A stretch of 39,332 bases of DNA from an uncultured Chloroflexota bacterium (lineage in GTDB: Bacteria; Chloroflexota; Anaerolineae; UBA4142; SHND01): NCBI GenBank assembly GCA_937870825.1, contig CALMZO010000416.1, positions 1 through 39,332 on the forward strand, read 5' to 3'. Below are positions 4,701-18,505 of this stretch, piece after piece; the first letter of the stretch is position 1, and every line of letters begins with the position of its first letter. The position numbers were made by a program, and so were the translations under genes. A model generated the notes under the pieces. It ran no database searches, was not told where the DNA came from, and was given only the letters and a program-made list of their open reading frames with translations.

Positions 4701-6398
4701 ATGCTTTCACTCTTTCGCCTGCGCCCCTGGCGCGCCTTACTTTTACTTTGTGCAGGGCTTGCCCTCGTTTTTTGTTTCAACCTTCCAAATTCGTACACCG
4801 CGAGCGCGAGCGCGCCGCAGCCCCGGCGCGCGCCCATTTTGGGAACAAACGCTGCCGACACCATCCCCGACCAATACATTGTCGTTTTCAAATCCACGGC
4901 GGGCGCGGCGGAACGACAGAAAACCACTGCGCGCGTCGCCAACGAATTCAGTGCGACCGTGCTGCATGAATATCGCGCCGCGCTCAACGGGTTTGCCGCG
5001 CGCTTGAATCCACAAGCGCTCGCCGACCTGCAAAAGAATCCGCTCGTCGAATTCATTGAACTCGACCAGCGCGTGTCCATTGACACCGGCAGCATTGTTC
5101 GCCGCGCGCCAACCGTTCTTGACACGAGCCAGCAAAAGCCGACGTGGGGCTTGGACCGGACTGACCAACGGAAACTGCCTCTCGATTCCTTGTACCGGTA
5201 CACGCCAACCGGCGCAGGCGTCAACGTGTATGTGATTGACACGGGCATTCGCATCACTCACAACGAGTTTGGCGGACGCGCGCACAGCGGCTATAGCGCG
5301 GTCAACGACGGCAACGGAACCAACGATTGCCAAGGACACGGCACGCACGTTGCAGGCACGATTGGGAGCAAGCGGTTTGGCGTTGCAAAAATGGTGGACC
5401 TCTTTGCGGTGCGCGTATTGAATTGCTTTGGCTCTGGCACTGTTTCTGCAGTGATTGCAGGGATTGATTGGGTCACCGCGAATCATGTCAAACCTGCGGT
5501 GGCGAATATGTCACTCGGCGGACCCAAATCCACGGCGATGGACAATGCGACGCGCGCATCCATTAACGCGGGCGTCGTTTATGTGATTGCGGCGGGCAAC
5601 AATGCAGCCAACGCGTGCAACACGTCTCCCGCCCGCGTCGCACAAGCTCTCACCGTCGGCGCGACGACAAAATCGGACACGCGTTCTTCTTTTTCCAACT
5701 ACGGCTCGTGCCTGGACATCTTTGCGCCCGGTTCTGACATTACCTCGCTTTGGAATGCGAGCAACACCGCACTCGCGACGATTAGCGGCACATCTATGGC
5801 AGCGCCGCATGTGGCAGGCGTCGCCGCGTTGTATCTTCAGGACAATCCGAATGATTTGCCCGGAACGGTGATGAATGCCATTCTGACTAATGCGACAAAG
5901 AACCGCGTCGGCAATCCGGGCGGCGGTTCACCGAACAAATTGCTGTATGCTCTGTTCGAGCCGGTCAATATCGTCCGCAACCCGGACTTTGAAGCTGGCG
6001 GCAATCAATGGAAAAACGGAAGCGGGATTATTGACACGCTAAAACCGCACCAAGATTTGTACAGCGCGTCGTTTTGCGATGCTGACAGTTGTACGGAATG
6101 GATTGAACAATCCTTTATCGTTCCGCAGGGCGCCAAGCTGCGCTTTTGGTGGTACCAAACGAGCGCCGAGGACAGCGTCACAGCGAACGATTTTTTGCGC
6201 GTACAACTCTTGCGCCAAGATGGCACTGTGCTCAAAACCCTCCGCGAATTCAATAACACGAGTGTGCGCGATATGTGGAGCGAAGACGCGCGCGGGCTTT
6301 CCGCGTACACGGGGCAACGCGTCAGGTTGCGCTTTACGGTGACAACAAACAGCACCCTGCCGGGCGCATTTTTTATAGATGATGTGTCAGTGCAATAA
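4701..6398 (+). CDS. Secreted subtilisin-like serine protease (S8, proteinase K-like)
   Basis: The 565-residue preproprotein has a signal peptide (basic RLRPWR, then a hydrophobic stretch at 11-26), an inhibitor I9 prodomain (about 57-125, with PDQYIVVFK), and an S8 catalytic domain. The triad is Asp180 (in VYVIDTGI), His213 (in GHGTHVAGT) and Ser365 (in SGTSMAAPH), with oxyanion Asn300 in AAGNN. The spacing and the CFGSG motif fit the proteinase K/thermitase side of the family. Residues 420-565 form a beta-rich C-terminal domain starting NIVRNPDFE and ending FFIDDVSVQ, like carbohydrate-binding or MAM-type modules. It starts four bases after the rimM stop without a clear ribosome-binding site and may be translationally coupled. 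Confidence 0.95.
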   Translation: MLSLFRLRPWRALLLLCAGLALVFCFNLPNSYTASASAPQPRRAPILGTNAADTIPDQYIVVFKSTAGAAERQKTTARVANEFSATVLHEYRAALNGFAARLNPQALADLQKNPLVEFIELDQRVSIDTGSIVRRAPTVLDTSQQKPTWGLDRTDQRKLPLDSLYRYTPTGAGVNVYVIDTGIRITHNEFGGRAHSGYSAVNDGNGTNDCQGHGTHVAGTIGSKRFGVAKMVDLFAVRVLNCFGSGTVSAVIAGIDWVTANHVKPAVANMSLGGPKSTAMDNATRASINAGVVYVIAAGNNAANACNTSPARVAQALTVGATTKSDTRSSFSNYGSCLDIFAPGSDITSLWNASNTALATISGTSMAAPHVAGVAALYLQDNPNDLPGTVMNAILTNATKNRVGNPGGGSPNKLLYALFEPVNIVRNPDFEAGGNQWKNGSGIIDTLKPHQDLYSASFCDADSCTEWIEQSFIVPQGAKLRFWWYQTSAEDSVTANDFLRVQLLRQDGTVLKTLREFNNTSVRDMWSEDARGLSAYTGQRVRLRFTVTTNSTLPGAFFIDDVSVQ

Positions 6399-7601: not shown

Positions 7602-8246
7602 TCAAGGTTTCTTGCGCAGTTCTTTCAGCTTGCGATTGAATTCCTTTATCCACTCACGTTCCTCGTCATCGAGAAATCCCCACGCACCGGCGCGCGTTGC
7701 CGAAATGCCCCCATACAACTGATAGAACCGTTCGACATCGCCCAAGTGAATGAGGTCTTGGTAGGCGGGCATGTCGCCGAAGAGTGTAAGCAGCGTTTCC
7801 TCGCTTTCCACGTGGGCGAACGCGCGCAGGTATTCCGCGGCGTGTTCGTGGCTTGGTGGGACGATACCGCTGATGACCGACAGCACACCGGCTTTTTCGG
7901 GATTCGTGAGCGTGAGCGCGCACGCTCGAATTTCGTCGAGTGACGCGTTCGGTTTTTCTTTGACGAGTTTCATGAGGCGCGCGGCGCGTTCAAGTTCGAT
8001 GAGACCGCGATGCTTTTTTAACCATTCGAGCGGCGGTGGAATCGCGCTCGTCGGCTGTTCGCAAAAGATTGTGGGATTGCTGAAGCAGCGCAGCATCGTT
8101 TCAATCATCACGCGCCCTCGATGGGATTCCTGCGCCGACATCTTTGGCGCATCCTGTTCCGCATGTTTGGTTGGAGTGATAAACGTTTCGAGACCAAATG
8201 CGGCGAAGAGGTTTGGTTGCTGCAACACCTTACTCCGCGCTTTCAT
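7602..8246 (-). CDS. Phage protein of unknown function (last gene of leftward module)
   Basis: The 214-residue protein is mostly helical and charged, without a motif I recognise. It has an ITPTKHAEQD region, a central EWLKKHRGLIELERAARLM helix, and a basic C-terminus rich in Lys/Arg/Glu (EWIKEFNRKLKELRKK). The ATG at 8246 lies inside the preceding gene (17-nt overlap), which points to translational coupling. No membrane segment or signal peptide is visible. Confidence 0.72.
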   Translation of the reverse strand: MKARSKVLQQPNLFAAFGLETFITPTKHAEQDAPKMSAQESHRGRVMIETMLRCFSNPTIFCEQPTSAIPPPLEWLKKHRGLIELERAARLMKLVKEKPNASLDEIRACALTLTNPEKAGVLSVISGIVPPSHEHAAEYLRAFAHVESEETLLTLFGDMPAYQDLIHLGDVERFYQLYGGISATRAGAWGFLDDEEREWIKEFNRKLKELRKKP

Positions 8247-8706
8247 TGCCCGCCTCCTCTCGCATACCGTCGTGCGCGGTGTGTTCGTGCCGGCAGCGCG
8301 CGCACGCGCCGTCTTGGTCGAGAACGAATTGCCCTTCCACGCTGCAGCATTCGCAGTCGTCCTCGTCTTCGGTCAGGCGTTCCAAGATTCCTTGTGCGGC
8401 ATATTCGATGGCTTGGTCGAGTCCCTTGCCCGCAATCCAAAAATCTTTCATCGCGTCGGCGATCTCGTCGAGTTCGGCTTTGGTGAGTGTGGACACGTCG
8501 TACCCCGCATTCGCAAACAAGTCTTTGTCCACGACGAGAGTGAGGTTTGTCCATTCTTGCAGCGCGTCGGGAGAATCCGTGAGTGCGTGCCACACCATAT
8601 CGAGCGACTGTTCGAGTTCACACGCGTGCGCCCACGTGATGTGGGGAATCGCGTAGACGATGGTCTTGAGTTCAGCGACGTGTTGCGCCAATACTTCGAG
8701 ATTCAT
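8230..8706 (-). CDS. Phage protein of unknown function with a Cys cluster
   Basis: The 158-residue acidic protein starts at the ATG at 8706, chosen because it is preceded by the conserved phage site GGAGACCC (8718-8711) with four bases between; upstream in-frame codons run through a hairpin. Near the C-terminus it has DDCECCSVEG, then CARCRHEHTAH, a CxCC...CxxCxH arrangement that could hold zinc. I do not recognise a family. Its 3' end overlaps the next gene by 17 nt. Confidence 0.72.
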   Translation of the reverse strand: MNLEVLAQHVAELKTIVYAIPHITWAHACELEQSLDMVWHALTDSPDALQEWTNLTLVVDKDLFANAGYDVSTLTKAELDEIADAMKDFWIAGKGLDQAIEYAAQGILERLTEDEDDCECCSVEGQFVLDQDGACARCRHEHTAHDGMREEAGNESAE

Positions 8707-8710
8707 TTCT

Positions 8711-8766
8711 GGGTCTCCTGTGGAAAGTAAAATGCCCTGCCACGCGCAATCACGTGGCAGGGCATT
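8711..8766 (-). promoter_or_regulatory. Start-associated sequence GGAGACCC with upstream hairpin (copy 5)
   Basis: Minus-strand GGAGACCC (8718-8711) is followed by AGAA and the ATG of the gene at 8706. Just upstream is a hairpin of 14 perfect pairs: AATGCCCTGCCACG (8731-8744) with CGTGGCAGGGCATT (8753-8766), loop of 8. On the minus strand the stem is followed by only a weak T-stretch, so it is more a leader hairpin than an efficient terminator. Confidence 0.75.
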
Positions 8767-8773
8767 GGATCTG

Positions 8774-9055
8774 TTATGGTTCGGTTTCCGGTTGGTCTTG
8801 CAGGTGCGGCGTTTCCTCGATGCCAAGCTCGTGAAAGAGAAGTTTGATGCCGAGCCAACCCGCGTAATCAGTTTGCAAGCGCACCAGAATCGCGGTCATG
8901 GCATCGGGCGAGAGGTGTGCCGTGATGTTAAAGATGAGGTCGTCGCCTGTGGTGATGCGCCGCAGCAACGCTTCGCCCTGTTCGTCGAGATATTGCTTTG
9001 GTCCTGTGATGGAGTGTTCCTGAGGGTTGTATTGAAATTCGCCGACGGTAATCAT
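8774..9055 (-). CDS. Small phage protein of unknown function
   Basis: The 93-residue acidic protein begins MITVGEFQYNPQEHSITGPK and has a hydrophobic/aromatic core (YAGWLGIKLLFHELGI) near its end. No family recognised. The start was set at 9055 rather than the in-frame ATG at 9091, because the latter lies inside a 16-bp perfect hairpin (9069-9104). No clear Shine-Dalgarno sequence precedes either. Located between the clamp gene and the Cys-cluster gene, in the same operon. Confidence 0.65.
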   Translation of the reverse strand: MITVGEFQYNPQEHSITGPKQYLDEQGEALLRRITTGDDLIFNITAHLSPDAMTAILVRLQTDYAGWLGIKLLFHELGIEETPHLQDQPETEP

Positions 9056-9068
9056 TTTGCTAAAGTGA

Positions 9069-9104
9069 AACTGCCCGCCACGTGCGTTCACGTGGCGGGC
9101 AGTT
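9069..9104. terminator. Perfect 16-bp hairpin after the sliding-clamp gene
   Basis: AACTGCCCGCCACGTG (9069-9084), loop CGTT, CACGTGGCGGGCAGTT (9089-9104). It lies 13 bases after the clamp stop codon. On the minus strand only TTTCACTTT follows, so it is a weak terminator, an RNA-processing/stabilising hairpin, or an attenuator. It shares the GCCACG/CGTGGC core with the hairpin at 8731-8766. Confidence 0.6.
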
Positions 9105-9117
9105 CGTTTAAGTTTCC

Positions 9118-10863
9118 TTATTTGGTTTTTGCTGGCGCCGCTTTGGATTTGGCAGGCGCTGCCTTTGTCTTGCCGTTTTTGTAAAGTTGGGATTGTGCGT
9201 CTTTTGGAGCATCGGCTTTCTGTTTGGCGTGAGCGGCTTCCACCTGTGCGATAACCGCTTTCGATGCTTTGTCATTCGCCGGATGTTGTGTATCCGAGCA
9301 ATCCTGTTCGGGTGTTGGGGCGTCCGGCTGCGGCTTGACGTTCGGCGCGGGTTTCTCTTCCTTGCCATCCCTGCCGATGTGCATGGGCATGACCACGTGC
9401 ACATAGTTGCGGGACTTGAAAAAGCCCGGACTTGCATTCGTGTTGACGTACAAGCGCGCCGGCGCGTCTCCGTCGTTGTAGGACACGGCTTTGATTGCAT
9501 CGCTGAGGTAGCGTGCGTTGAATGCAATCTCAAAGTCCGTTGCAGGTGCTGCGCTGTCGAATGGAACGGAAATGCGCTCTTCAAAATCGCCCGTATCTAC
9601 ATCCTGCGAGCGAATGATGACCTCTTTGTTTTCGACATCGCATGCCAGTCGAATGATTTGGCTGCTTGCAAACAGCGACGCGCTGCCAACGGCATCCAGC
9701 GTATCGGACACTGGAAGGGGAATGAGTTTGGCATCCGCCGTGTCTTTGACGATTTGCCGATAGTCGGGATAGTTCCCGTCGAGCAGCATCATTTGCAGCC
9801 AGCGGTCGGAAAACTCAACCCGAACCATCCCACGTTCCCATTCGCCCTTGCTGTTGTATTGGATATGGAACGTAAAGGGAATGGGCTTGGCTTCATCGGT
9901 GACGAGCTTGAGCGCTTCCGTAAAGACACGCGGCGGGATAATCAAACCGATTTCGGAATGACGCGGCTTTTCTCGGAAGGCGGTGAGAATATCGTGCTGC
10001 CACACGCTCATGCGATAGCCGTCCGCGCTGACCAGGTTTGCGGTTACGCTGTTGCCGCTCTCATTCGGCAGCGTAGCTTGCAGATACGACCCGTTGAGCG
10101 AGGGGCGCGCGTCATCCGTTGCCACACTCGGTATCACGCGCTTGGCAAGTTCATTGATTTCTGTCGGCGTGAGCAGGACCGTAAACGATTCGCTGTGTTT
10201 CCCATTGAACGGTGTGATTGTGGGGAATTCGTCCGCGCTCGTTGCCTTGATGTGTCCCGTGACCTTGCCGGCACGAAGCGTGGTCAGCCAGGTCTTGGCT
10301 TGCGTTTGGATGGTGACGGGTGTTTGCGGGTCAAGGCGAGAAACCGCGTCCGTGAGAATGGTTGGAATGCAAACCCGTCCCGGCGTGTACACGCGCGCCT
10401 CGATGGTCTTGGAGAGAGCAATCGTCAAATCGGTTGCGATGATGGTGACGGTCTCTTCGTTCGGGTTCGCTTCGACGAGGAGCGTGCTGAGAATCGGGAG
10501 CGTAGATCTTTTCGCGCTGGCGCGTTCCACGTGTTGGAGTGCAGTGGCGAGGACACCGGCGCGCACTTCAAAGTGCAACGCGGTCATGGGCTCGCTCGGC
10601 GGCTCCTTCACAGGTGCCGGTTGCTCAATCACTTTTGCTTGCGGCACTGCCACGGGCATGTCATGCTTGCCGTTCTTGCCATTCGGCTGCGGAGCAGCGG
10701 GTTTGGTCGCGCTTGTGCTAGGTTTGTGTGATGTGCTGTTCGCTTTCGTTTGCACGAGTTTGTCGTTCGCGGGTTTCGCGTTCGTGGCTTTTGCTTGCTT
10801 GGCATTGCGAACGGACATGGCTTTTGCGATACGTGCGTTTGCTTGCTTGAGTTGCGTATTCAT
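9118..10863 (-). CDS. dnaN: Phage DNA polymerase III beta subunit-like sliding clamp with long tails
   Basis: Residues from about 93 to 478 form a complete three-domain beta clamp: LHFEVRAGVLATALQHVERA opens domain 1, followed by STLPILSTLLVEA, ATDLTIAL, DGNYPDYRQIV (the usual '.G.YPDY...' segment of domain 2) and the closing YVHVVMPM that matches the bacterial C-terminus. The clamp tethers polymerase to DNA. Bacterial DnaN is about 370 residues; here about 92 basic, low-complexity residues precede it and about 100 Lys/Ala/Pro-rich residues follow (ending SKAAPAKSKAAPAKTK). The start at 10863 is the first ATG; a GTG at 10893 is also in frame. It lies in the phage leftward module, so it is a phage-encoded clamp, not the host gene. 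Confidence 0.9.
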   Translation of the reverse strand: MNTQLKQANARIAKAMSVRNAKQAKATNAKPANDKLVQTKANSTSHKPSTSATKPAAPQPNGKNGKHDMPVAVPQAKVIEQPAPVKEPPSEPMTALHFEVRAGVLATALQHVERASAKRSTLPILSTLLVEANPNEETVTIIATDLTIALSKTIEARVYTPGRVCIPTILTDAVSRLDPQTPVTIQTQAKTWLTTLRAGKVTGHIKATSADEFPTITPFNGKHSESFTVLLTPTEINELAKRVIPSVATDDARPSLNGSYLQATLPNESGNSVTANLVSADGYRMSVWQHDILTAFREKPRHSEIGLIIPPRVFTEALKLVTDEAKPIPFTFHIQYNSKGEWERGMVRVEFSDRWLQMMLLDGNYPDYRQIVKDTADAKLIPLPVSDTLDAVGSASLFASSQIIRLACDVENKEVIIRSQDVDTGDFEERISVPFDSAAPATDFEIAFNARYLSDAIKAVSYNDGDAPARLYVNTNASPGFFKSRNYVHVVMPMHIGRDGKEEKPAPNVKPQPDAPTPEQDCSDTQHPANDKASKAVIAQVEAAHAKQKADAPKDAQSQLYKNGKTKAAPAKSKAAPAKTK

Positions 10864-10867
10864 TTCT

Positions 10868-10950
10868 TTATGCCGACCGATCACACTCAACACTCGATGT
10901 GCGTAAAGTGTGCTCGCTCGTCAGGGTCTCCTTGTGCCGAACGTGTCGGC
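10868..10950 (-). promoter_or_regulatory. Start-associated sequence with hairpin (copy 4) and a possible leader ORF lacking ATG
   Basis: GGAGACCC (10931-10924, minus) has the inverted repeat GCCGA/TCGGC (10936-10950) directly upstream, like the other copies. Where the others have ATG two bases later, this one has ACG (10921-10919). From there the frame is open for 17 codons and stops with TAA at 10870-10868, four bases before the clamp ATG. It is either a leader ORF that uses or has lost a start codon, or a displaced ribosome-binding site. Confidence 0.5.
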
Positions 10951-10982
10951 GAATCAAATTGGTTTGGGTCTGATTTGGATTG

Positions 10983-11213
10983 CTAGTCCGACGTGAGCGT
11001 TTCACCTCGTTGTGTTGGGATGTCCCAGTCCACCGGCTCGAGCACCAGCACGAGTTTGCCGTTGCGCTGCTCGCGTGTGACCACGAGCTGGGTGTATGGG
11101 GGAAAGAGTCGTGCTACCCACTTGCCGCGCAGTCGAATCATTGCTCGCGTGGCAGGTTTCCATGGCGCGCAGTCGCCCATCGGTTGAACCGTGATTGTCG
11201 GTCGCCGTCGCAT
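10983..11213 (-). CDS. SymE-like small protein (AbrB-type fold)
   Basis: The 76-residue protein has IRLRGKWVARLFPPYTQLVV and then GKLVLVLEP (residues 26-59), resembling the SymE toxin domain ('..L.G.WL...GF..G..V.V.....LVL'), which derives from the AbrB/MazE fold. SymE is an SOS-induced RNA-cleaving toxin in E. coli; many phage homologues are of unknown role. The match is by pattern only, and no antisense antitoxin RNA can be proved here. Start ATG at 11213 with GGAGGG six to eleven bases upstream. It follows the KTSC gene by 12 bases. Confidence 0.65.
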   Translation of the reverse strand: MRRRPTITVQPMGDCAPWKPATRAMIRLRGKWVARLFPPYTQLVVTREQRNGKLVLVLEPVDWDIPTQRGETLTSD

Positions 11214-11225
11214 GTGTCCCTCCGC

Positions 11226-11432
11226 TTATGCAATGCGCTTGCACGCAAACCGGTTGCGGATATTGCGGTGGTAATACACGCCCTTGCTCTGCGCTTTGAG
11301 CCAGCGAGAAAAGGTGTGCGCGGACACGCCGGCGTACTGATACACGCTGCCGCGCTTGAATTCGACAGTTACCGTGCGATGGTCTGGGTCGTAACCAATC
11401 GCATGGATGAAAGAGGAAAGTACGGGAATCAT
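11226..11432 (-). CDS. KTSC domain-containing protein
   Basis: The 68-residue protein matches the KTSC family: SSFIHAIGYDPDHRTVTVEF, then GSVYQYAGV and a C-terminal 'SKGVYYHRNIR' segment corresponding to the family's 'S.G.YFN..IR'. The name-giving Lys-Thr-Ser-Cys residues are not all conserved in such proteins. KTSC proteins are small nucleic-acid-associated or phage proteins, often fused to or next to DNA-processing enzymes; the molecular role is not established. Translation starts at 11432, two bases after the conserved GGAGACCC site. Confidence 0.85.
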   Translation of the reverse strand: MIPVLSSFIHAIGYDPDHRTVTVEFKRGSVYQYAGVSAHTFSRWLKAQSKGVYYHRNIRNRFACKRIA

Positions 11433-11434
11433 TT

Positions 11435-11495
11435 GGGTCTCCTGTGAAAATTTCGTACAGAAATGGCAACTCCCGCTGGGTCAGGGCGGGAGTTG
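11435..11495 (-). promoter_or_regulatory. Start-associated sequence with upstream hairpin (copy 3)
   Basis: GGAGACCC (11442-11435) plus AA precedes the KTSC ATG. Upstream is CTGTACGAAA (11460-11451), a decamer that recurs at 14057-14048 in the divergent region, and then a 10-bp hairpin CAACTCCCGC/GCGGGAGTTG (11467-11476 with 11486-11495). The hairpin sits 18 bases after the stop of the upstream gene. Confidence 0.75.
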
Positions 11496-11513
11496 GTGTT
11501 TACATTGCTTGCG

Positions 11514-11726
11514 CTATTTGGTTGTCAGCGTGAGAGTGAGTTCCTGCGGCATCTTGTTGCCGAGCGCCCACTTTTGGACGTAGAGCGTTCCGATTTTCGG
11601 GGGCATCCCGTTTTCGGTGCGTTCGTCGAAACGAAAGCAATTTTTCGTTTCGGGCTTGTCTGCATGCGGAACAAACGTGAGAGAGGTTTGGTTCGCTGCA
11701 GGTGTGGAATTGGTTTGGGTCTTCAT
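11514..11726 (-). CDS. Small conserved protein of unknown function
   Basis: The 70-residue protein begins with a Thr/Asn/Gln-rich tail (MKTQTNSTPAANQ), followed by a compact region with ETKNCFRFDE, PPKIGTLYVQKWALGNK and a Thr-rich end (ELTLTLTTK). The 'TKN..R..E....PP.IGTLY.QK.ALG' pattern is familiar to me from small uncharacterised proteins in several bacteria and phages, without an assigned function. The start at 11726 is fixed by AAGGAGACCC two bases upstream; an ORF start at 11801 would cross two hairpins. Confidence 0.75.
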   Translation of the reverse strand: MKTQTNSTPAANQTSLTFVPHADKPETKNCFRFDERTENGMPPKIGTLYVQKWALGNKMPQELTLTLTTK

Positions 11727-11728
11727 TT

Positions 11729-11753
11729 GGGTCTCCTTGCGAACAATGTTCGC
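11729..11753 (-). promoter_or_regulatory. Start-associated sequence with adjacent palindrome (copy 2)
   Basis: GGAGACCC (11736-11729) plus AA precedes ATG 11726. The inverted repeat GCGAAC-AAT-GTTCGC (11739-11753) lies two bases upstream of AAGGAG. It resembles a LexA-type GAAC...GTTC half-site pair but with a 3-nt spacer. Confidence 0.75.
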
Positions 11754-11768
11754 ACTGAATAATTTTTT

Positions 11769-11802
11769 CACACTGGGTCGAGTGTGGATGGAGCGTTCCA
11801 TC
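11769..11802 (+). other. Twin hairpins, possible start of a second small RNA
   Basis: CACACT-GGGTCG-AGTGTG (11769-11786) is followed without a gap by GATGGA-GCGT-TCCATC (11787-11802). On the plus strand the first loop shows GGGTCG, the same core as loop 1 of the RNA at 11971. A weak promoter-like TTGCGA (11737-11742) and AATAAT (11758-11763) lies before it. A further stem CTCGCGC/GCGCGAG (11813-11845) follows. On the minus strand these would sit in the leader of the gene at 11726. The rest of 11803-11936 is non-coding, with a GAACAGGAGTTC palindrome at 11882-11893. Confidence 0.35.
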
Positions 11803-11936
11803 TGTAAAAATCCTCGCGCAAGCAGAACCTTTTGTAAAGCGCGAGTTTCACTTGAAAAAATAGTCGCAGAATCGTTTCGTGGAACAGGAGTTCAATCGAA
11901 CGATGCTTAAAAATTCTGTGCAACTGCCCGATTGCA

Positions 11937-11965
11937 TTGCGAATGCCCGTTTCCCATGTTAGAAT
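11937..11965 (+). promoter_or_regulatory. Promoter of the structured RNA (TTGCGA-17-TAGAAT)
   Basis: TTGCGA at 11937-11942 and TAGAAT at 11960-11965 are spaced by 17 bp. The expected start of transcription, about 11971-11972, coincides with the first base of hairpin 1 of the downstream RNA. Confidence 0.65.
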
Positions 11966-11970
11966 GTTTA

Positions 11971-12122
11971 CCGGAATCGGATGGGTCGCCGATTCTGGCG
12001 ATGGAACAGAAAGCGTTCCAACGCAGCCCGCCCGTGTCGGGGTCTCCGCGCGGGTGGGTTCGCACTTATCGTCGGCTATCCGACAACGGCGCCGCGCGAA
12101 GATATTTCGCGCGGCGTTTTTT
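11971..12122 (+). ncRNA. Candidate small RNA/structured leader of five hairpins with loops complementary to GGAGACCC
   Basis: Five consecutive stems can be drawn. H1 is 11971-11980 with 11989-11998, loop AUGGGUCG. H2 is UGGAAC 12002-12007 with 12015-12020, loop AGAAAGC. H3 is 12027-12036 with 12049-12058, loop UCGGGGUCUCCG. H4 is GUCGG/CCGAC, 12071-12084. H5 is the terminator stem, 12090-12116, then U6. The loop of H3 holds GGGUCUCC (12040-12047), an exact complement of the GGAGACCC ribosome-binding sites of four leftward genes. The H1 loop gives 6-7 further complementary bases (UGGGUC). It could act in trans as an antisense RNA on those mRNAs, or in cis as an attenuator for the gene at 12146. 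An alternative is translation from the ATG in loop H1, in frame with that gene. Confidence 0.6.
12090..12122 (+). terminator. Intrinsic terminator of the structured RNA
   Basis: CGCCGCGCGAA (12090-12100), loop GATAT, TTCGCGCGGCG (12106-12116), then TTTTTT to 12122. It lies 24 bases before the next ATG, the position of an attenuator. Confidence 0.88.
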
Positions 12123-12145
12123 ATTTCCCTCGCTTGGAGGCAGTC

Positions 12146-12349
12146 ATGGCGAAGACGCCATCGCAATCGGATTTCTCGTTGGGCATGACCTTGGACCAGC
12201 TGCGCGATCTGCTTTGGCGCGAATTTCAACAGATGAAGTTTCTCGTCGAACTGGCGCGCCAAATGCGTTATGGCGAGATTCGGATTCAAGTCAGTGATGG
12301 TGTGATGAAGGACATTCATGTTGACCTTCGCTTTCGCGAAAAAGGCTAA
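12146..12349 (+). CDS. DUF2292 (YezD)-like small protein
   Basis: The 67-residue protein has a helical N-terminal half (LDQLRDLLWREFQQMKFLVE) and then LARQMRYGEIRIQVSDGVMK and DIHVDLRFR, which matches the DUF2292 pattern 'L..IRYG.V.I...DG....I....'. The function of this family is unknown. Start ATG at 12146 with GGAGG six bases upstream (12136-12140). It is the only rightward gene inside the leftward module, enclosed by terminators at 12090-12122 and 12382-12412, so it forms its own transcription unit with the structured RNA as leader or neighbour. Confidence 0.72.
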   Translation: MAKTPSQSDFSLGMTLDQLRDLLWREFQQMKFLVELARQMRYGEIRIQVSDGVMKDIHVDLRFREKG

Positions 12350-12381
12350 GTCGGAAGCATACGTGTGCAATGCTCAATGAA

Positions 12382-12415
12382 GAGCGGCGACCCATCGGTC
12401 GCCGCTCCTTTTATT
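12382..12415 (+). terminator. Intrinsic terminator between convergent genes
   Basis: GAGCGGCGACC (12382-12392), loop CATC, GGTCGCCGCTC (12397-12407), then CTTTTATT. It ends the rightward DUF2292-like unit and overlaps the stop region of the convergent gene at 12411; in the leftward direction the T-run is poor. Confidence 0.85.
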
Positions 12416-13031
12416 CGAGTTCCATTTCTATCTGTCCGCCTGGCGCCGCTTGTTCGCGCCCGAAGCGTTTTTTACTGCGCGTGTAATCGGTTTGCGTAAA
12501 GTCGTCATGCATCCACCAAGAAGCAGCACGCTCCCGGTATGGGTCGTGGATGTCGGGTGTGGGATTTAGCACGCAACCTTCGTCGAGCCAATGCTCGACG
12601 CCGCGCCCCATTTTGCGACCGTGCTGGGTGTGTTTGTCCAGCGCGTAATCGGGAATCTCCAATCGCTTGCCGTGTAGCCGGTCTTGATTGACGGCGCATT
12701 GAAAGTGGTCGGCGATACGGCTCTTTGGACTGCGGCAGAGCAAGAGGATTGCATTCGCAAGAGCGAGCCTGGCAGAGCCATCTTTCTTGGCGGTGCGAAA
12801 CTCAAAATAAATCGCACGTTGGCTTGGAACAACATACAGCGCGGTCGGGTTTGCAATCCCTATGTCTTCGTTCGTGATTACGACGAGACGTTGCCACAAA
12901 TAGTCTTCAAACAGCGGAACGAGTTCGAGTGCCCAGTACAGCGCGTTCTCTTCTTCGCCACGGCGGATTTCCTTCTGCAACGCGCTGATGACCTCGAAGA
13001 GGTTGTATCCGTTCTGCGTCATCACGTTCAT
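12411..13031 (-). CDS. Stand-alone RarA/MgsA (WRNIP1) C-terminal-like domain protein
   Basis: The 206-residue protein resembles the C-terminal helical part of the replication-associated AAA+ ATPase RarA/MgsA without its ATPase domain. EVISALQKEIRRGEEENALY with WALELV corresponds to '.ISA..KS.RG.D.DAALYWLA', and RLVVITNEDIGIANPTAL to 'RL...ASEDIGLADP.AL'. A later DKHTQHGRKMGRGVEHW segment is a pattern I know from the same family. In RarA this part mediates tetramerisation and contact with the replication machinery. No Walker motifs are present. Start 13031 has GGAGAAGAG upstream; ATG 13046 is an alternative adding five residues. It follows the ParB-like gene. Confidence 0.7.
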   Translation of the reverse strand: MNVMTQNGYNLFEVISALQKEIRRGEEENALYWALELVPLFEDYLWQRLVVITNEDIGIANPTALYVVPSQRAIYFEFRTAKKDGSARLALANAILLLCRSPKSRIADHFQCAVNQDRLHGKRLEIPDYALDKHTQHGRKMGRGVEHWLDEGCVLNPTPDIHDPYRERAASWWMHDDFTQTDYTRSKKRFGREQAAPGGQIEMELE

Positions 13032-13062
13032 CGTACTCTTCTCCATTCTCTTTTTTTCCCTT

Positions 13063-13992
13063 TCACGGTTTCGCATTCTTGCGCTTGGGTGACGTACCCG
13101 GTGGAAACGCCATGCCGCCGCGCAAGAGTGAATCATAGATGGTGCCAACAACGGGGGCAATCTGCCGATGGTAAGGGTTGTCACTACCAAGCAGCTGCTT
13201 GATGTACGCCTCGAACGTTGCGCCGATACTGCCGACGCGCTCCATCTGGGGCAGCTGCGGGTCAATCGGAAATTTTCGTTTGAGCATTGCAGCACGCTCG
13301 GTGTTGTGCTTCTCGACGGCATCATTGACGTACTGCTCGGCGAACTGAATATCGAACAGGGTCTCCTGTGCTTGCTCCGCAAGCAATCTTCCGACGAGCG
13401 CCTTGAATTCACGAAGCAAAGGTTTTTCGGTCTGCACGAGATACTCCAATGCAATGCGCTGACGGTTGCTGTCCAGGGGTGACATCGTTTCGCCGAACAC
13501 GACAGCAATTTGTTTGGTCCGAATCATTTGCTGCACTTCGGGCAACAGGTCCAAGAGTGACAAGCGCGCGGCGACGTGTCTCGCATTCTTTTTCGAGCGC
13601 TCGGCGCATTCAGCAACCGACCAACCGAATTGCTCGATACGCTTGGCATAGGCATGCGCTTCATCGAGCGCATCGAGGTCCGCGCGCTGGACGTTTTCTG
13701 CAAGCATCAAGGATGCCGCTTGTTCGTCCGAAAGCGTCCGCACAAAGCCGGGTATGGTTGTCCATTCGAGCAACTGCACCGCGCGGAACCGGCGCTCACC
13801 TGCGACGATTTCATACTTTTTACCGCCGGACTGAGTGCAGAGGCGGACGGTAATGGGTTGCAAGAGTCCGTGTTCCTTGATGCTCGCGGCGAGTTCTTGC
13901 AGCTCGTCGGGGTTGAAAACTGTTCGGTCATTGTCGCCGGGTTGGATGTCGGCGATTTTGAGCGGAACAGCAACTTCTTTGGAATGATGCAT
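13063..13992 (-). CDS. ParB/RepB/Spo0J family partition-type protein
   Basis: The 309-residue protein begins with a ParB N-terminal domain: HGLLQPITVR at 41-50, the ParB signature GERRFRA at 65-71, and ENVQRADLD at 99-107 (box II). A helix-turn-helix follows at about 121-147 (FGWSVAECAERSKKNARHVA). The C-terminal half is helical. Chromosomal ParB proteins are CTP-dependent DNA clamps for segregation; in phages such proteins serve partition or act as nucleases or regulators. No ParA gene is next to it. It is the first gene of the leftward module, with the conserved GGAGACCC site two bases before the ATG at 13992. Confidence 0.9.
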   Translation of the reverse strand: MHHSKEVAVPLKIADIQPGDNDRTVFNPDELQELAASIKEHGLLQPITVRLCTQSGGKKYEIVAGERRFRAVQLLEWTTIPGFVRTLSDEQAASLMLAENVQRADLDALDEAHAYAKRIEQFGWSVAECAERSKKNARHVAARLSLLDLLPEVQQMIRTKQIAVVFGETMSPLDSNRQRIALEYLVQTEKPLLREFKALVGRLLAEQAQETLFDIQFAEQYVNDAVEKHNTERAAMLKRKFPIDPQLPQMERVGSIGATFEAYIKQLLGSDNPYHRQIAPVVGTIYDSLLRGGMAFPPGTSPKRKNAKP

Positions 13993-13994
13993 AT

Positions 13995-14037
13995 GGGTCT
14001 CCTTATGGTTTTGGGTCTTGCAGAACGTGCGTTCTGC
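13995..14037 (-). promoter_or_regulatory. Start-associated sequence (copy 1) and SOS-box-like palindrome in the divergent control region
   Basis: GGAGACCC (14002-13995) plus AT precedes the ParB-like ATG. Upstream lies GCAGAAC-GTGC-GTTCTGC (14020-14037), which contains GAACN4GTTC, the form of the LexA box of many Gram-positive bacteria, and between them a partial copy AAGACCCAAAA. The rest of the divergent spacer (14038-14115) must hold promoters for both modules; I see no consensus pair, only CTGTACGAAAA (minus), shared with the KTSC leader. Confidence 0.6.
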
Positions 14038-14115
14038 TGAAGGAATTTTCGTACAGTCAGCACAGTTTGTAAATGCAACAGATGTTCAATGAAAAATCTT
14101 CAATCAGAGGTGATA

Positions 14116-14991
14116 ATGAGCAATTCACTCAATCGTTTTCGTGACCGCATCGTCGAGGTGCGCAAGATGCCGGCGCGCGAACTTGTAGACAACGCGGGGA
14201 ATTGGCGGACGCACCCTGCCATGCAGCGCGAATCCCTGACCGGTGTCTTGCGTGAAGTGGGCAAAGCCGATGTCTTGCTGGCGTACTCTTCGGCAAGACA
14301 TGGAAATCAACTCACGCTCGTTGACGGACATCTCCGAAAGGACATTGACCCGGACGAAGTGTGGACGGTTGCCATCACAGATTTGAATGATGAGGAAGCG
14401 GACAAGATGCTGCTCGTGCTTGACCCGCTCGCCGCGATGGCAAGCGCGGACAAAGAAAAATTAGACGCGCTGCTGGAGCGCGTTCGCACTGACGATTTAG
14501 GCGTCCGTGAAATGCTTCGACGAATGGAGGTCGAAAACGACGCGCTCGAAGAGGATGCCGAAGCGAATGTCAAACCCGAAAACCATCTGCCCGCGATGGA
14601 GTTGATGCCGTTTGAGCACTATGACTATCTGGTGCTCTTTTTCAAAACGACATTTGATTTCGAGCGCGCGCTGGATTTCTTTGGCGTGCGCAAGACCGGC
14701 TGGTACGCGCACATGGGCGGCGATTACGAAAAGGGACGGATGAAAGTGGGCATCGGTCGTGCACTTGACGGCGGGCGCGCGATGGAGCGTATCGCCGCGA
14801 TGCAAGAAAAAGAGGAGCAGAGAAATGACACCAACCCTACGAATCGTGATTCCAAGTCGCAAGCGAGTGAAACTGTTGGCGGAACGAGCATTGACATTGT
14901 TTCCGAAAGCAACGGTCACGATCGCGGAAAGCGAGATGGACGATTATCGCCCCATCGTCGCAAGCGAAAATCTCGTGCCCCATCCCGATGA
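14116..14991 (+). CDS. ParB-fold (ParB/Srx) phage protein
   Basis: The 291-residue protein has a ParB N-terminal-like fold of the type found upstream of phage terminases: ELVDNAGNWRTHPAMQRESL, then GVLREVGKADVLLAY, LTLVDGHLRKDI and EEADKMLLVLDPLAAMA (about residues 18-120). Such proteins are thought to act in DNA modification or nicking. A second region (about 155-215, FEHYDYLVLFFKTTFDFERA) follows. The ATG at 14116 has GAGGTGA just upstream; an ATG at 14089 is less likely. The last 56 residues overlap the next gene in another frame and are low-complexity, so this C-terminus is probably an added tail. Confidence 0.82.
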   Translation: MSNSLNRFRDRIVEVRKMPARELVDNAGNWRTHPAMQRESLTGVLREVGKADVLLAYSSARHGNQLTLVDGHLRKDIDPDEVWTVAITDLNDEEADKMLLVLDPLAAMASADKEKLDALLERVRTDDLGVREMLRRMEVENDALEEDAEANVKPENHLPAMELMPFEHYDYLVLFFKTTFDFERALDFFGVRKTGWYAHMGGDYEKGRMKVGIGRALDGGRAMERIAAMQEKEEQRNDTNPTNRDSKSQASETVGGTSIDIVSESNGHDRGKRDGRLSPHRRKRKSRAPSR

Positions 14992-15586
14992 GGTGAGCGG
15001 GATTGCACCCATTCGGCAATGGGTTCTGGACCGTTTTGACGACGAGTGCATTGTGTTCGTGGATGACGATGTATATCAACTGATTTCACTCGTCGGCTAT
15101 TCGTACTCGAAAATTACATCGGCTGCGAACGCCATGCGCGTTGTCGAAAATACGGCGAACATTGCGCGCGAAATGGGAACGGCGGTGTTTGGATTCAATC
15201 AGGCATTCGATGTGCGGAAATTCGTGCCGCAAAAGCCCTTCCTGCTGCACTCGTGGGCTGGCGGCGTCATTGGCATTATTGGGCGTGAGTTTCGCTACGA
15301 GACTGCGCTGCGCTTGCGCGCGGACATTGATTTTTGTTTGCAGGTCTTACTCAAGCGGCGCGTGACCTTTATCGAGAACCGCATTGCGTTCGTGCATAAA
15401 CGCTTTGGGCTCACCGGGGGAAATGCGGTCAACCGTTCGGCGGAGCGCAACAAACAAGAGTTGGAATACTTGCAGCGCAAATGGGGTAAATATCTCGAAG
15501 TCACCCAATCGAAGGGAACGACTTTACTGAAACTGCACGTGCAGCGACAGCAAAAGACGATACAACTCGCGGGAGATGTTGAGTAA
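14825..15586 (+). CDS. GT-A glycosyltransferase-like phage protein
   Basis: The 253-residue protein opens with LRIVIPSRKR, the usual first strand of a GT-A fold, has the metal-binding style motif IVFVDDDV at 76-83, and a later GGVIGIIGREF and LRADIDFCLQVLLK region fitting acceptor/catalytic elements. Phages with ParB-fold proteins and GT-A enzymes are known or predicted to glycosylate modified bases in their DNA; here that role is inferred from neighbours only. Start ATG at 14825 with GAGGAG upstream; it lies 167 bases inside the previous gene. Sugar donor and substrate unknown. Confidence 0.75.
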   Translation: MTPTLRIVIPSRKRVKLLAERALTLFPKATVTIAESEMDDYRPIVASENLVPHPDEVSGIAPIRQWVLDRFDDECIVFVDDDVYQLISLVGYSYSKITSAANAMRVVENTANIAREMGTAVFGFNQAFDVRKFVPQKPFLLHSWAGGVIGIIGREFRYETALRLRADIDFCLQVLLKRRVTFIENRIAFVHKRFGLTGGNAVNRSAERNKQELEYLQRKWGKYLEVTQSKGTTLLKLHVQRQQKTIQLAGDVE

Positions 15587-15588
15587 CG

Positions 15589-16203
15589 ATGGATTCTGAG
15601 GTTCATGTTTGGGAACGACGCTCAAGCGAGCCGAACAAGTGGTACGACCGTTTTCAAATGTATCTCCTGCTCGGACCGTCACGGTCGCTTTACGCGACGT
15701 ACACGGCATGGCGTGCACGCAGTGGCGCGGAAAGCGCGCAAAAGCGCGCGGGTTTGCCGCAATCGTGGCGTCAGGCAGCCGAAAGATGGGAGTGGGCGAA
15801 GCGGGCAGAAAAATTCGACGAGAACGAACGTGCGCAGCAATTTACCGAATGGCAGCGCCGCCGTGATGAATTGCGCGAGCAGGAGTGGAAATTTTCCAAA
15901 GAGCTGCTGGACAAGGCACAACAAATGCTGGTCTTTCCGCTCGCGAAAACGACGCGCACGGCAGAGAGCGACGGACAAACCGTGATTACGGAAGTGTATC
16001 CAGCGCGCTGGAGTATCGGGGATGTCGCTCGTTATTTGGAGACAGCGAGCAAACTCGCACGCCTGGCGCTCGGCGAAGAAACGGAACGCGTGGGAATTAA
16101 CTCCGGACTGGCACTCACTGTGGATGATTTTATACAAGCGGCGAATGCTGTGAGGGAATGGGAACGCGATACTTACGGTGATTCTGCTATAATAGCAAAA
16201 TGA
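15589..16203 (+). CDS. Small terminase subunit-like protein (paralogue 1)
   Basis: The 204-residue protein is clearly related to the protein at 17837. Both have 'EP..W(Y/F)DRFQ..LLLG..RS.Y.TY' at the N-terminus and 'GLP.SWR.AA.RW.W..RAE.FD..ERA' shortly after, a helix-turn-helix region as in small terminase subunits that recognise the packaging site. The C-terminal half (coiled, then 'DVARYLETASKLARLALGEETE') differs from the paralogue. Start ATG 15589, three bases after the previous stop, with GGGAGA upstream. It overlaps the next gene by 4 nt. Confidence 0.72.
   Translation: MDSEVHVWERRSSEPNKWYDRFQMYLLLGPSRSLYATYTAWRARSGAESAQKRAGLPQSWRQAAERWEWAKRAEKFDENERAQQFTEWQRRRDELREQEWKFSKELLDKAQQMLVFPLAKTTRTAESDGQTVITEVYPARWSIGDVARYLETASKLARLALGEETERVGINSGLALTVDDFIQAANAVREWERDTYGDSAIIAK
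16185..16193 (+). promoter_or_regulatory. Extended -10 promoter element (TGCTATAAT)
   Basis: TGCTATAAT at 16185-16193 is a perfect extended -10. Position +1 would fall at about 16200, the A of the next ATG, so the gene could be read from a leaderless message. No good -35 box. Confidence 0.5.
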
Positions 16204-17830: not shown

Positions 17831-17836
17831 TTGTCT

Positions 17837-18505
17837 ATGGACACTGATGCTACCCTAAACGCTTCATGGGCGCGTCAAGCAAAAGAGCCCGCGCTTTGGT
17901 TTGACCGCTTTCAGAGATTTCTTTTGCTTGGCGTGACACGCTCGGTGTATCGCACGTACATCGTCGAGCGGATGGATAAAGCGACACGAAAAAAACAAAA
18001 GGACGCGGTGAATGAAGAAATTTCCGCGCGCAGTGGGCTGCCGAAATCCTGGCGAGATGCCGCCAAGCGATGGAATTGGAAAGTACGCGCCGAAGCGTTC
18101 GACGATGCGGAACGCGCGAAACGCGACGAACTCTATCGCGCTCGCGTGAATGACATTTTAGCGAGTGGGTTCGCGCAACGCTTCGCGCGCGTCGCGGAAT
18201 TGAATCGGCTCGCCGAACTCTTGCAAGAGGAAATCTGGACCGACGACAAGCGCTGGCTGCCCGATGTGAAACAAATTGGCAGCGGCGAAGCTGCGGAGCG
18301 CGTGGACATTGTACGGTTCAACGCGTCGGTCATCGAACAATATCGTCAAACGCTTGAGGATATCGCCGTCGAGATGGGCGAGCGCGTGCGCGGCGTCAAA
18401 GTGAGCGGAAACCTGGGACTCGTGCAATTTGCGGCGGATGAATTGGCAAAGGCAAAAGATGCGGCTCAGCAGGCGGAGCAAGATTTGCTCGCGCAATTGA
18501 AATGA
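17837..18505 (+). CDS. Small terminase subunit-like protein (paralogue 2)
   Basis: The 222-residue protein carries EPALWFDRFQRFLLLGVTRS followed by the GLPKSWRDAAKRWNWK block shared with the protein at 15589. Its C-terminal part is a long helical region ending in a probable coiled coil (FAADELAKAKDAAQQAEQDL). It sits nine bases before the large terminase gene, the normal place for terS, so this copy is the better candidate for the packaging-site recognition subunit. Start ATG at 17837 (a TTG at 17831 is also in frame). Confidence 0.78.
   Translation: MDTDATLNASWARQAKEPALWFDRFQRFLLLGVTRSVYRTYIVERMDKATRKKQKDAVNEEISARSGLPKSWRDAAKRWNWKVRAEAFDDAERAKRDELYRARVNDILASGFAQRFARVAELNRLAELLQEEIWTDDKRWLPDVKQIGSGEAAERVDIVRFNASVIEQYRQTLEDIAVEMGERVRGVKVSGNLGLVQFAADELAKAKDAAQQAEQDLLAQLK

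Follow-up and report, generated by a model that had tools for sequence, protein, structure and literature searches.

A candidate phage small RNA complementary to a ribosome-binding motif shared by several genes of the same phage

Can one small RNA encoded by a phage address a whole set of that phage's own genes through a ribosome-binding site (RBS) that they have in common? The question is raised by a short structured stretch of the window, by which we mean the entire 39,332-base contig C416, part of a 7.23-Mb bin of 446 contigs. Our analysis suggests that the locus probably specifies a trans-acting antisense RNA that would repress the phage genes sharing an extended RBS.

The candidate RNA unit and the shared ribosome-binding motif

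Genes for terminase, portal, head and tail proteins lie in the window, and its leftward genes include those for a ParB-like protein, a KTSC-domain protein and a DNA polymerase clamp. The host is likely a Chloroflexota-type bacterium, judging from 11 terminase relatives in named genomes, of which nine are metagenome-assembled genomes called Anaerolineae, Caldilineaceae, Ardenticatenaceae or Chloroflexi/Chloroflexota. The terminase small subunit family phrog_6299 has matches in two separate window genes, at 15589-16203 and 17831-18505. Another contig of the same bin (C422, locus L015, 7971 bases) is a piece of a second related phage, with a terminase 66-68% identical.

The RNA unit lies on the plus strand. 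Its promoter (11937-11965), already proposed in the preliminary description, consists of a -35 TTGCGA, 17 nt and an extended -10, TGttAGAAT; as TTGCGA-17-TAGAAT it scores 9 of 12, with TG ahead of the -10. With a 5' end inferred about 6 nt past the -10 and a 3' end given by the terminator, the putative structured non-coding RNA covers 11971-12122. The fold of 11971-12125 bears out the five hairpins described earlier as ending in an intrinsic terminator, at -84.4 kcal/mol and a z of -6.3, with equally stable structures in 0 of 200 shuffles. Hairpin 1 (11972-11997) exposes the loop AUGGGUCG at 11981-11988, in which UGGGUC can pair with GACCCA of the RBS motif. Hairpin 2 (11998-12024) includes AGCGUUCCA at 12012-12020, and GUUCGCACU at 12058-12066 has an unpaired linker as its 3' part; each is the exact complement of part of the leader of the gene at 11726. 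Between them, hairpin 3 (12025-12060) carries GGGUCUCC at 12040-12047, the exact complement of GGAGACCC. The predicted fold continues with hairpin 4 (12071-12084) and closes with the terminator (12088-12122), a stem at 12088-12118 followed by a T run. The terminator sequence 12090-12122 resembles stretches of about 30 nt (84-93%, both strands) in genomes of the same genus and is perhaps a host-type terminator.

No convincing gene lies inside the unit, as had been stated: the six frames of 11971-12122 have coding scores of -0.135 to -0.471, compared with a minimum of -0.175, a 5th percentile of +0.099 and a median of +0.327 among 137 left-out 50-codon gene chunks. Conservation of the frame 11981-12349 as protein had been named as an observation that would speak for coding. 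This frame looks like a gene only from the ATG at 12146, since 12146-12346 scores a gene-like +0.256 and the RNA part scores as non-coding; the downstream portion is a 67-aa gene (12146-12349, plus strand) directly 3' of the RNA terminator, with an ortholog at the same place in a related phage (34-36% identity). Its protein resembles LPD29 (E 0.048) and DUF2292 (E 0.08) weakly, in both cases below threshold, and the gene is followed on the same strand by a second terminator (12382-12407), to which a similar sequence is present in the related phage. An Rfam scan of the window returned nothing reaching the gathering score; six sub-threshold matches in 11700-12420 (best RcsR1, 23.3 bits against 60) were judged to be chance.

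Seven copies of GGAGACCC lie in the window, every one on the minus strand. Four of the seven copies are RBSs standing 2-4 nt ahead of an ATG, confirming what had been reported for the genes at 13992, 11726, 11432 and 8706. They belong to the ParB-like gene (13063-14002, motif 13995-14002), a 70-aa gene (11514-11736, motif 11729-11736) and the KTSC-domain gene (11226-11442, motif 11435-11442), all three conserved predicted targets, and to a 158-aa gene (8230-8718, motif 8711-8718) whose ortholog in the related phage is without the motif. The remaining three copies lie within the ParB gene (13359), in the leader of the clamp gene (10924-10931, with no start codon within 10 nt) and at the RNA locus, as the complement of hairpin 3. 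The clamp-leader copy is about 60 nt ahead of the ATG at 10863, and in the related phage the motif stands directly at the clamp start; the copy is perhaps a displaced RBS. The arrangement GGAGACCC-N2-6-ATG is found 10 times in the entire bin, and because four of these sit on the window contig, which holds 0.54% of the bases, the motif is, by this sequence count, a property of the phage rather than of the genome's general style.

The window alone gives a mixed picture of how well the RNA and these sites would pair. The octamer GGGTCTCC at 12040-12047, whose complement is GGAGACCC, arises in 48 of 20,000 shuffles of the window RNA. The summed duplex energy of the RNA with the four RBSs, accessibility left out, is matched by 1 of 1000 shuffles; gene by gene the same test gives 0.003 (11726), 0.002 (13992), 0.034 (8706) and 0.134 (11432), and three of 29 control starts fall below 0.05 (14116, 0.008; 34660, 0.019; 15589, 0.042). 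Exact pairing extends over 6-8 nt: the match is 6 nt at loop 1 (7 nt to ParB), where one mismatch separates the loop from the complement of the full motif (UGGGUCGCC), and 8 nt at the hairpin 3 site. Loop 1, earlier put forward as a second site, opens for 0.5 kcal/mol, the cheapest among 144 8-mers of the RNA. For hairpin 3 the exact complement to GGAGACCC stands and the open 12-nt loop does not: a 3-bp inner stem in the minimum free energy (MFE) structure narrows it to GGUCU, and opening the GGGUCUCC site costs 5.3 kcal/mol, 34th among the 144.

Nested dimer energies show no preference for the motif genes, with -1.2 to -9.6 for these four vs -1.4 to -9.2 for 14 controls. This co-folding model cannot represent loop-loop pairing, so the result neither proves nor refutes the proposed regulation. 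When gaps are allowed, complementarity of the RNA to the motif-gene leaders stays within the usual range in three cases (8706, 0.094; 11726, 0.197; 13992, 0.235) and reaches 0.014 for 11432. Three more exact words of 7-9 nt are common to the RNA and the complement of the leader of gene 11726, and the nine shared 7-mers are reached by 0 of 1000 shuffles. This word sharing is weakened by the contig itself, because 707 minus-target and 795 plus-target contig windows reach nine once the terminator is included; with the terminator left out, about 0.2% of the contig's 125-nt windows show comparable sharing.

A syntenic relative as an independent test

These window statistics are post hoc, and a relative phage therefore serves as an independent test. 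Through the 70-aa and KTSC genes we reached a 52.7-kb IMG/VR record, IMGVR_UViG_3300024349_000273 (L134, also L137), with orthologs of the ParB-like (58% identity), MgsA_C-like (63%), 70-aa (67%), KTSC (75%) and clamp (38%) proteins, among others. Its gene order is nearly that of the window, with ParB and the MgsA_C-like gene swapped. In the window the latter, a gene for an MgsA C-terminal domain (AAA+ ATPase) at 12411-13046, adjoins ParB; in L134 it is conserved on ParB's opposite side.

The whole L134 record contains nine copies of GGAGACCC and none of a reversed control pattern. Eight of the nine lie 0-5 nt ahead of an ATG or GTG that opens a frame of 70 to 597 aa; one of these frames runs off its locus at 498. 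The ParB-like, 70-aa and KTSC genes carry the motif in both phages, and L134 adds the clamp gene and four more. The ninth copy lacks a start codon; read on the other strand, it is the GGGTCTCC of an RNA-like unit that occupies the orthologous position. There, a promoter at the equivalent position (TTGACC-17-(TG)TAAAAT) precedes an RNA that folds with a z of -6.8 and ends in a terminator (5716-5683) ahead of the 67-aa gene (ATG at 5638); the 3' arm of this terminator shares 15 identical nt with the window, where the arm reads ATATTTCGCGCGGCG. The preliminary description had held that relatives keeping GGAGACCC and losing the loops would count against it; the one syntenic relative keeps both, with eight GGAGACCC RBSs and one GGGTCTCC in the RNA.

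Complementarity is longer in L134 than in the window. Among six sites tested, exact complements of the RNA extend over 13 nt at ParB, 12 at KTSC, 12 at the clamp gene and 10 at three others. Shuffling the L134 RNA yields TGGGTCTCCTGA in 0 of 20,000 cases and GGGTCTCC in 29 of 20,000. Nested dimer energies are -12.9 to -19.3 for the six motif genes tested vs -2.2 to -11.8 for four controls. We regard this phage as decisive support, at the level of sequence, for the observation made in the window, with the conservation of RNA and motif resting on these two sequences. An RNA-like unit, a motif shared among gene starts, complementarity between the two and their retention in one relative can be read directly from the two records.

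Alignment of the two phages also indicates which part of the RNA is retained. When the -10 is included, TGGGTCTCC of L134 aligns on hairpin 1 of the window (TGGGTCGCC); in a MAFFT alignment made without the -10, the two hairpin-1 parts do not align. UGGGUC lies equally far past the -10 hexamer in both phages, and an ungapped comparison of the 30 nt following the -10 gives 17 identities, a level that base shuffling attains 14 times in 20,000. RNAalifold keeps six hairpin-1 pairs in both, two of them with both sides changed in a compensatory manner, and leaves UGGGUC unchanged. The earlier emphasis on hairpin 3 must be revised: it has no counterpart in the L134 alignment, and as judged from these two sequences the conserved element is hairpin 1, because UGGGUC keeps its offset from the -10 with two compensatory pairs. 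In L134, opening the whole of UGGGUCUCC costs 10.1 kcal/mol and opening UGGGU alone 0.1. Given this value and the low cost of loop 1 in the window, folding models make the UGGGU(C) loop a plausible first contact.

Proposed mechanism and competing explanations

The sequence has the features by which a trans-antisense small RNA is recognised: its own promoter, a non-coding body and an intrinsic terminator, together with complementarity to the starts of other genes that is conserved in two phages. We infer that the unit is transcribed, that the RNA would pair with its targets in the cell and that it would act on them in trans as a repressor. In this model the phage would make an RNA of about 150 nt from its own promoter, and its exposed parts, chiefly the UGGGUC of the 5' hairpin loop, would base-pair with GGAGACCCA, the extended RBS that appears common to a phage gene set; in the window, GGGUCUCC of hairpin 3 may provide an additional pairing segment. 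Because such pairing would cover the Shine-Dalgarno sequence, it would most likely lower translation of the whole set at once. RNA and targets would meet in trans: the L134 RNA and the divergent 70-aa gene have separate promoter-like sites that face in opposite directions, which would keep the two transcripts from overlapping. The idea that one RNA reaches many genes gains support from L134, with the regulatory role and its sign remaining our interpretation. It also seems reasonably likely that the small RNA and the phage-wide custom RBS GGAGACCCA have co-evolved as a phage 'RNA regulon' that would jointly set the translation of ParB, KTSC, clamp and other genes.

The position of the terminator invites another explanation. 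In both phages it lies directly ahead of the orthologous 67-aa gene in conserved synteny, as expected of an attenuator leader, and scans found no promoter-like site in between. The region could then be the 5' leader of the 67-aa gene, with most transcripts ending at the strong terminator and some signal allowing read-through into the gene, and the RBS complementarity would be incidental; in one prefix fold, the hairpin-4 sequence indeed pairs with the 5' arm of the terminator before the 3' arm is made. We consider this unlikely as the full account, as it leaves unexplained why the complement of the shared RBS was kept while much else diverged. A terminated leader can, moreover, double as a small RNA, so that both readings may hold.

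It is also conceivable, albeit quite improbable, that the GGAGACCC copy at the RNA locus has no function as RNA, being either the decayed copy of an RBS module or a shared stretch of DNA bound by a phage protein. The leftward leaders share further short repeats besides the RBS, so RBS modules may have been copied, and GTCAGGAGACCCA in L134 resembles such modules and has no start codon after it. Yet the position with respect to promoter and terminator has been maintained, the stem of the UGGGUC loop is still paired through two double changes, and an exact complement of 8-13 nt is not expected to survive free decay.

Phages use RBS motifs as translational operators, and T4 RegA is a translational repressor protein. 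Recognition of the shared RBS by a protein of phage or host origin, along the lines of T4 RegA or RegB and with the RNA unrelated or modulating that protein, is nevertheless very improbable here, because the RNA holds the complement rather than a copy of the site and so is no ordinary decoy. The antisense RNA that we favour would still resemble RegA, in that one regulator would serve many early phage genes at their RBSs, as judged here from sequence; it differs in being an RNA instead of a protein.

Relation to known regulators and search for further members

The closest precedent is the c4 RNA of phages P1 and P7, which blocks the RBS of ant with complementary stretches that likely lie in loops, according to a 2025 review (PMC12197685). 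The RNA described here is likewise a phage RNA whose loop sequences are complementary to an RBS. Unlike c4, which that account presents with the single target ant, it faces a motif shared by four genes in the window or eight in L134. Rfam includes a c4 family, of which we found no covariance match at the gathering score in the window and none in a permissive Rfam scan of 11700-12420. The preliminary description had considered the design to be without a known phage example: for the principle of RBS pairing this does not hold, because c4 already pairs with an RBS, and for the target motif shared by many genes the difference stands. Small RNAs of P22 (sar, against ant) and lambda (OOP, against cII) also repress phage genes through base-pairing (PMC12197685). 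They are described there with one target each, unlike the target set proposed here, which is defined by a repeated RBS.

Among bacterial small RNAs, LhrC of Listeria directs three UCCC sites at a single Shine-Dalgarno region, and RNAIII, RsaE, SprD and FsrA are named as UCCC users (PMC4132741). As with LhrC, RNAIII and RsaE in that account, loops and single-stranded stretches of one RNA match Shine-Dalgarno regions. In contrast to the UCCC-loop RNAs as presented there, the loops here carry UGGGUC and GGGUCUCC, matching GGAGACCCA, and the predicted targets are the phage's own genes; the UCCC loop motif is absent, the loops being AUGGGUCG and GGUCU within GGGUCUCC. Among the titles and abstracts listed by searches of the open-access literature, none dealt with a phage RNA aimed at an RBS common to many phage genes. 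Blockage of a single RBS by a phage RNA has precedents; here the target appears to be a motif that stands at many starts of the same phage. If the pairing is as we read it, one RNA could switch a whole gene set, which would make it comparable, at the post-transcriptional level, to a repressor acting on many operators. Similar systems could be sought by taking phages with an unusual repeated RBS and searching their structured intergenic RNAs for the complementary sequence.

Searches for further relatives of the RNA covered genomes of the class, viral contigs and GenBank phages. DNA similarity to the RNA region (11930-12360, E up to 1) gave some match in 351 of 396 class genomes, with two candidates per genome scored, and among the matches listed all were shorter than 50 nt except the window. 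A covariance model built from the two sequences (R1) matched three of 376 class genomes at E 0.01, namely the window and two loci, L160 and L161, that were judged to be chance because neither holds GGAGACCC; L161 has a weak protein match to the window frame 14759-15583 (26%, E 4e-7). On 77 selected sequences, R1 recovered no third member, the next best E being 0.27 or worse. The family of the 70-aa gene occurs in nine of 396 class genomes and two of 390 phylum genomes, its own genome within both counts, and ten other loci of this family (1.8-3.2 kb each) hold no second gene of the RNA neighbourhood; one of them, L157, has one GGAGACCC start, and L158 one GGAGACCC copy without an adjacent start. 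Two distant records, L135 and L136, have no other clear neighbour gene (two marginal short matches in L135) and no comparable RNA arrangement in the inspected stretches, with zero and one copies of GGAGACCC, respectively.

Viral contigs queried with the 67-aa, ParB, clamp and terminase proteins yielded no relative, and the capsid-type protein gave three at 32-35%. A terminase profile found at least 566 relatives, of which the best 80 were kept, and 11 genome contigs. Among the loci compared, ParB matches occurred in three (best L090, 46% over 207 aa) and matches to the gene at 14089 in three, with no match to the genes beside the RNA. In GenBank phages there was no DNA match to window positions 9000-16000; 1787 records matched the terminase, none at 60% or more, nine matched the capsid-type protein, and the L134 70-aa protein and the 7602 protein were unmatched. 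Positions 5400-6300 of L134 had no match in phages or plasmids.

Repeated RBSs of other kinds do exist in more distant phages. L115, L080 and L081, which have related terminases, repeat a different extended RBS; in L115 all six copies of GGAGAGAA precede starts, and AGGAGAGA occurs seven times. No clear complementary RNA was found in two or three such phages with other repeated RBSs, and the idea that phages with a repeated RBS carry a matching RNA finds no clear support in L115, L080 and L081. In L080, AGGAGGAT has five copies, four of which stand before starts, and GGAGAGAC likewise stands before starts in four of five cases; in L081 the proportion is three of four. In both phages one odd GGAGAGAC copy lies away from starts, at 16912 in L080 and at 9282 in L081.
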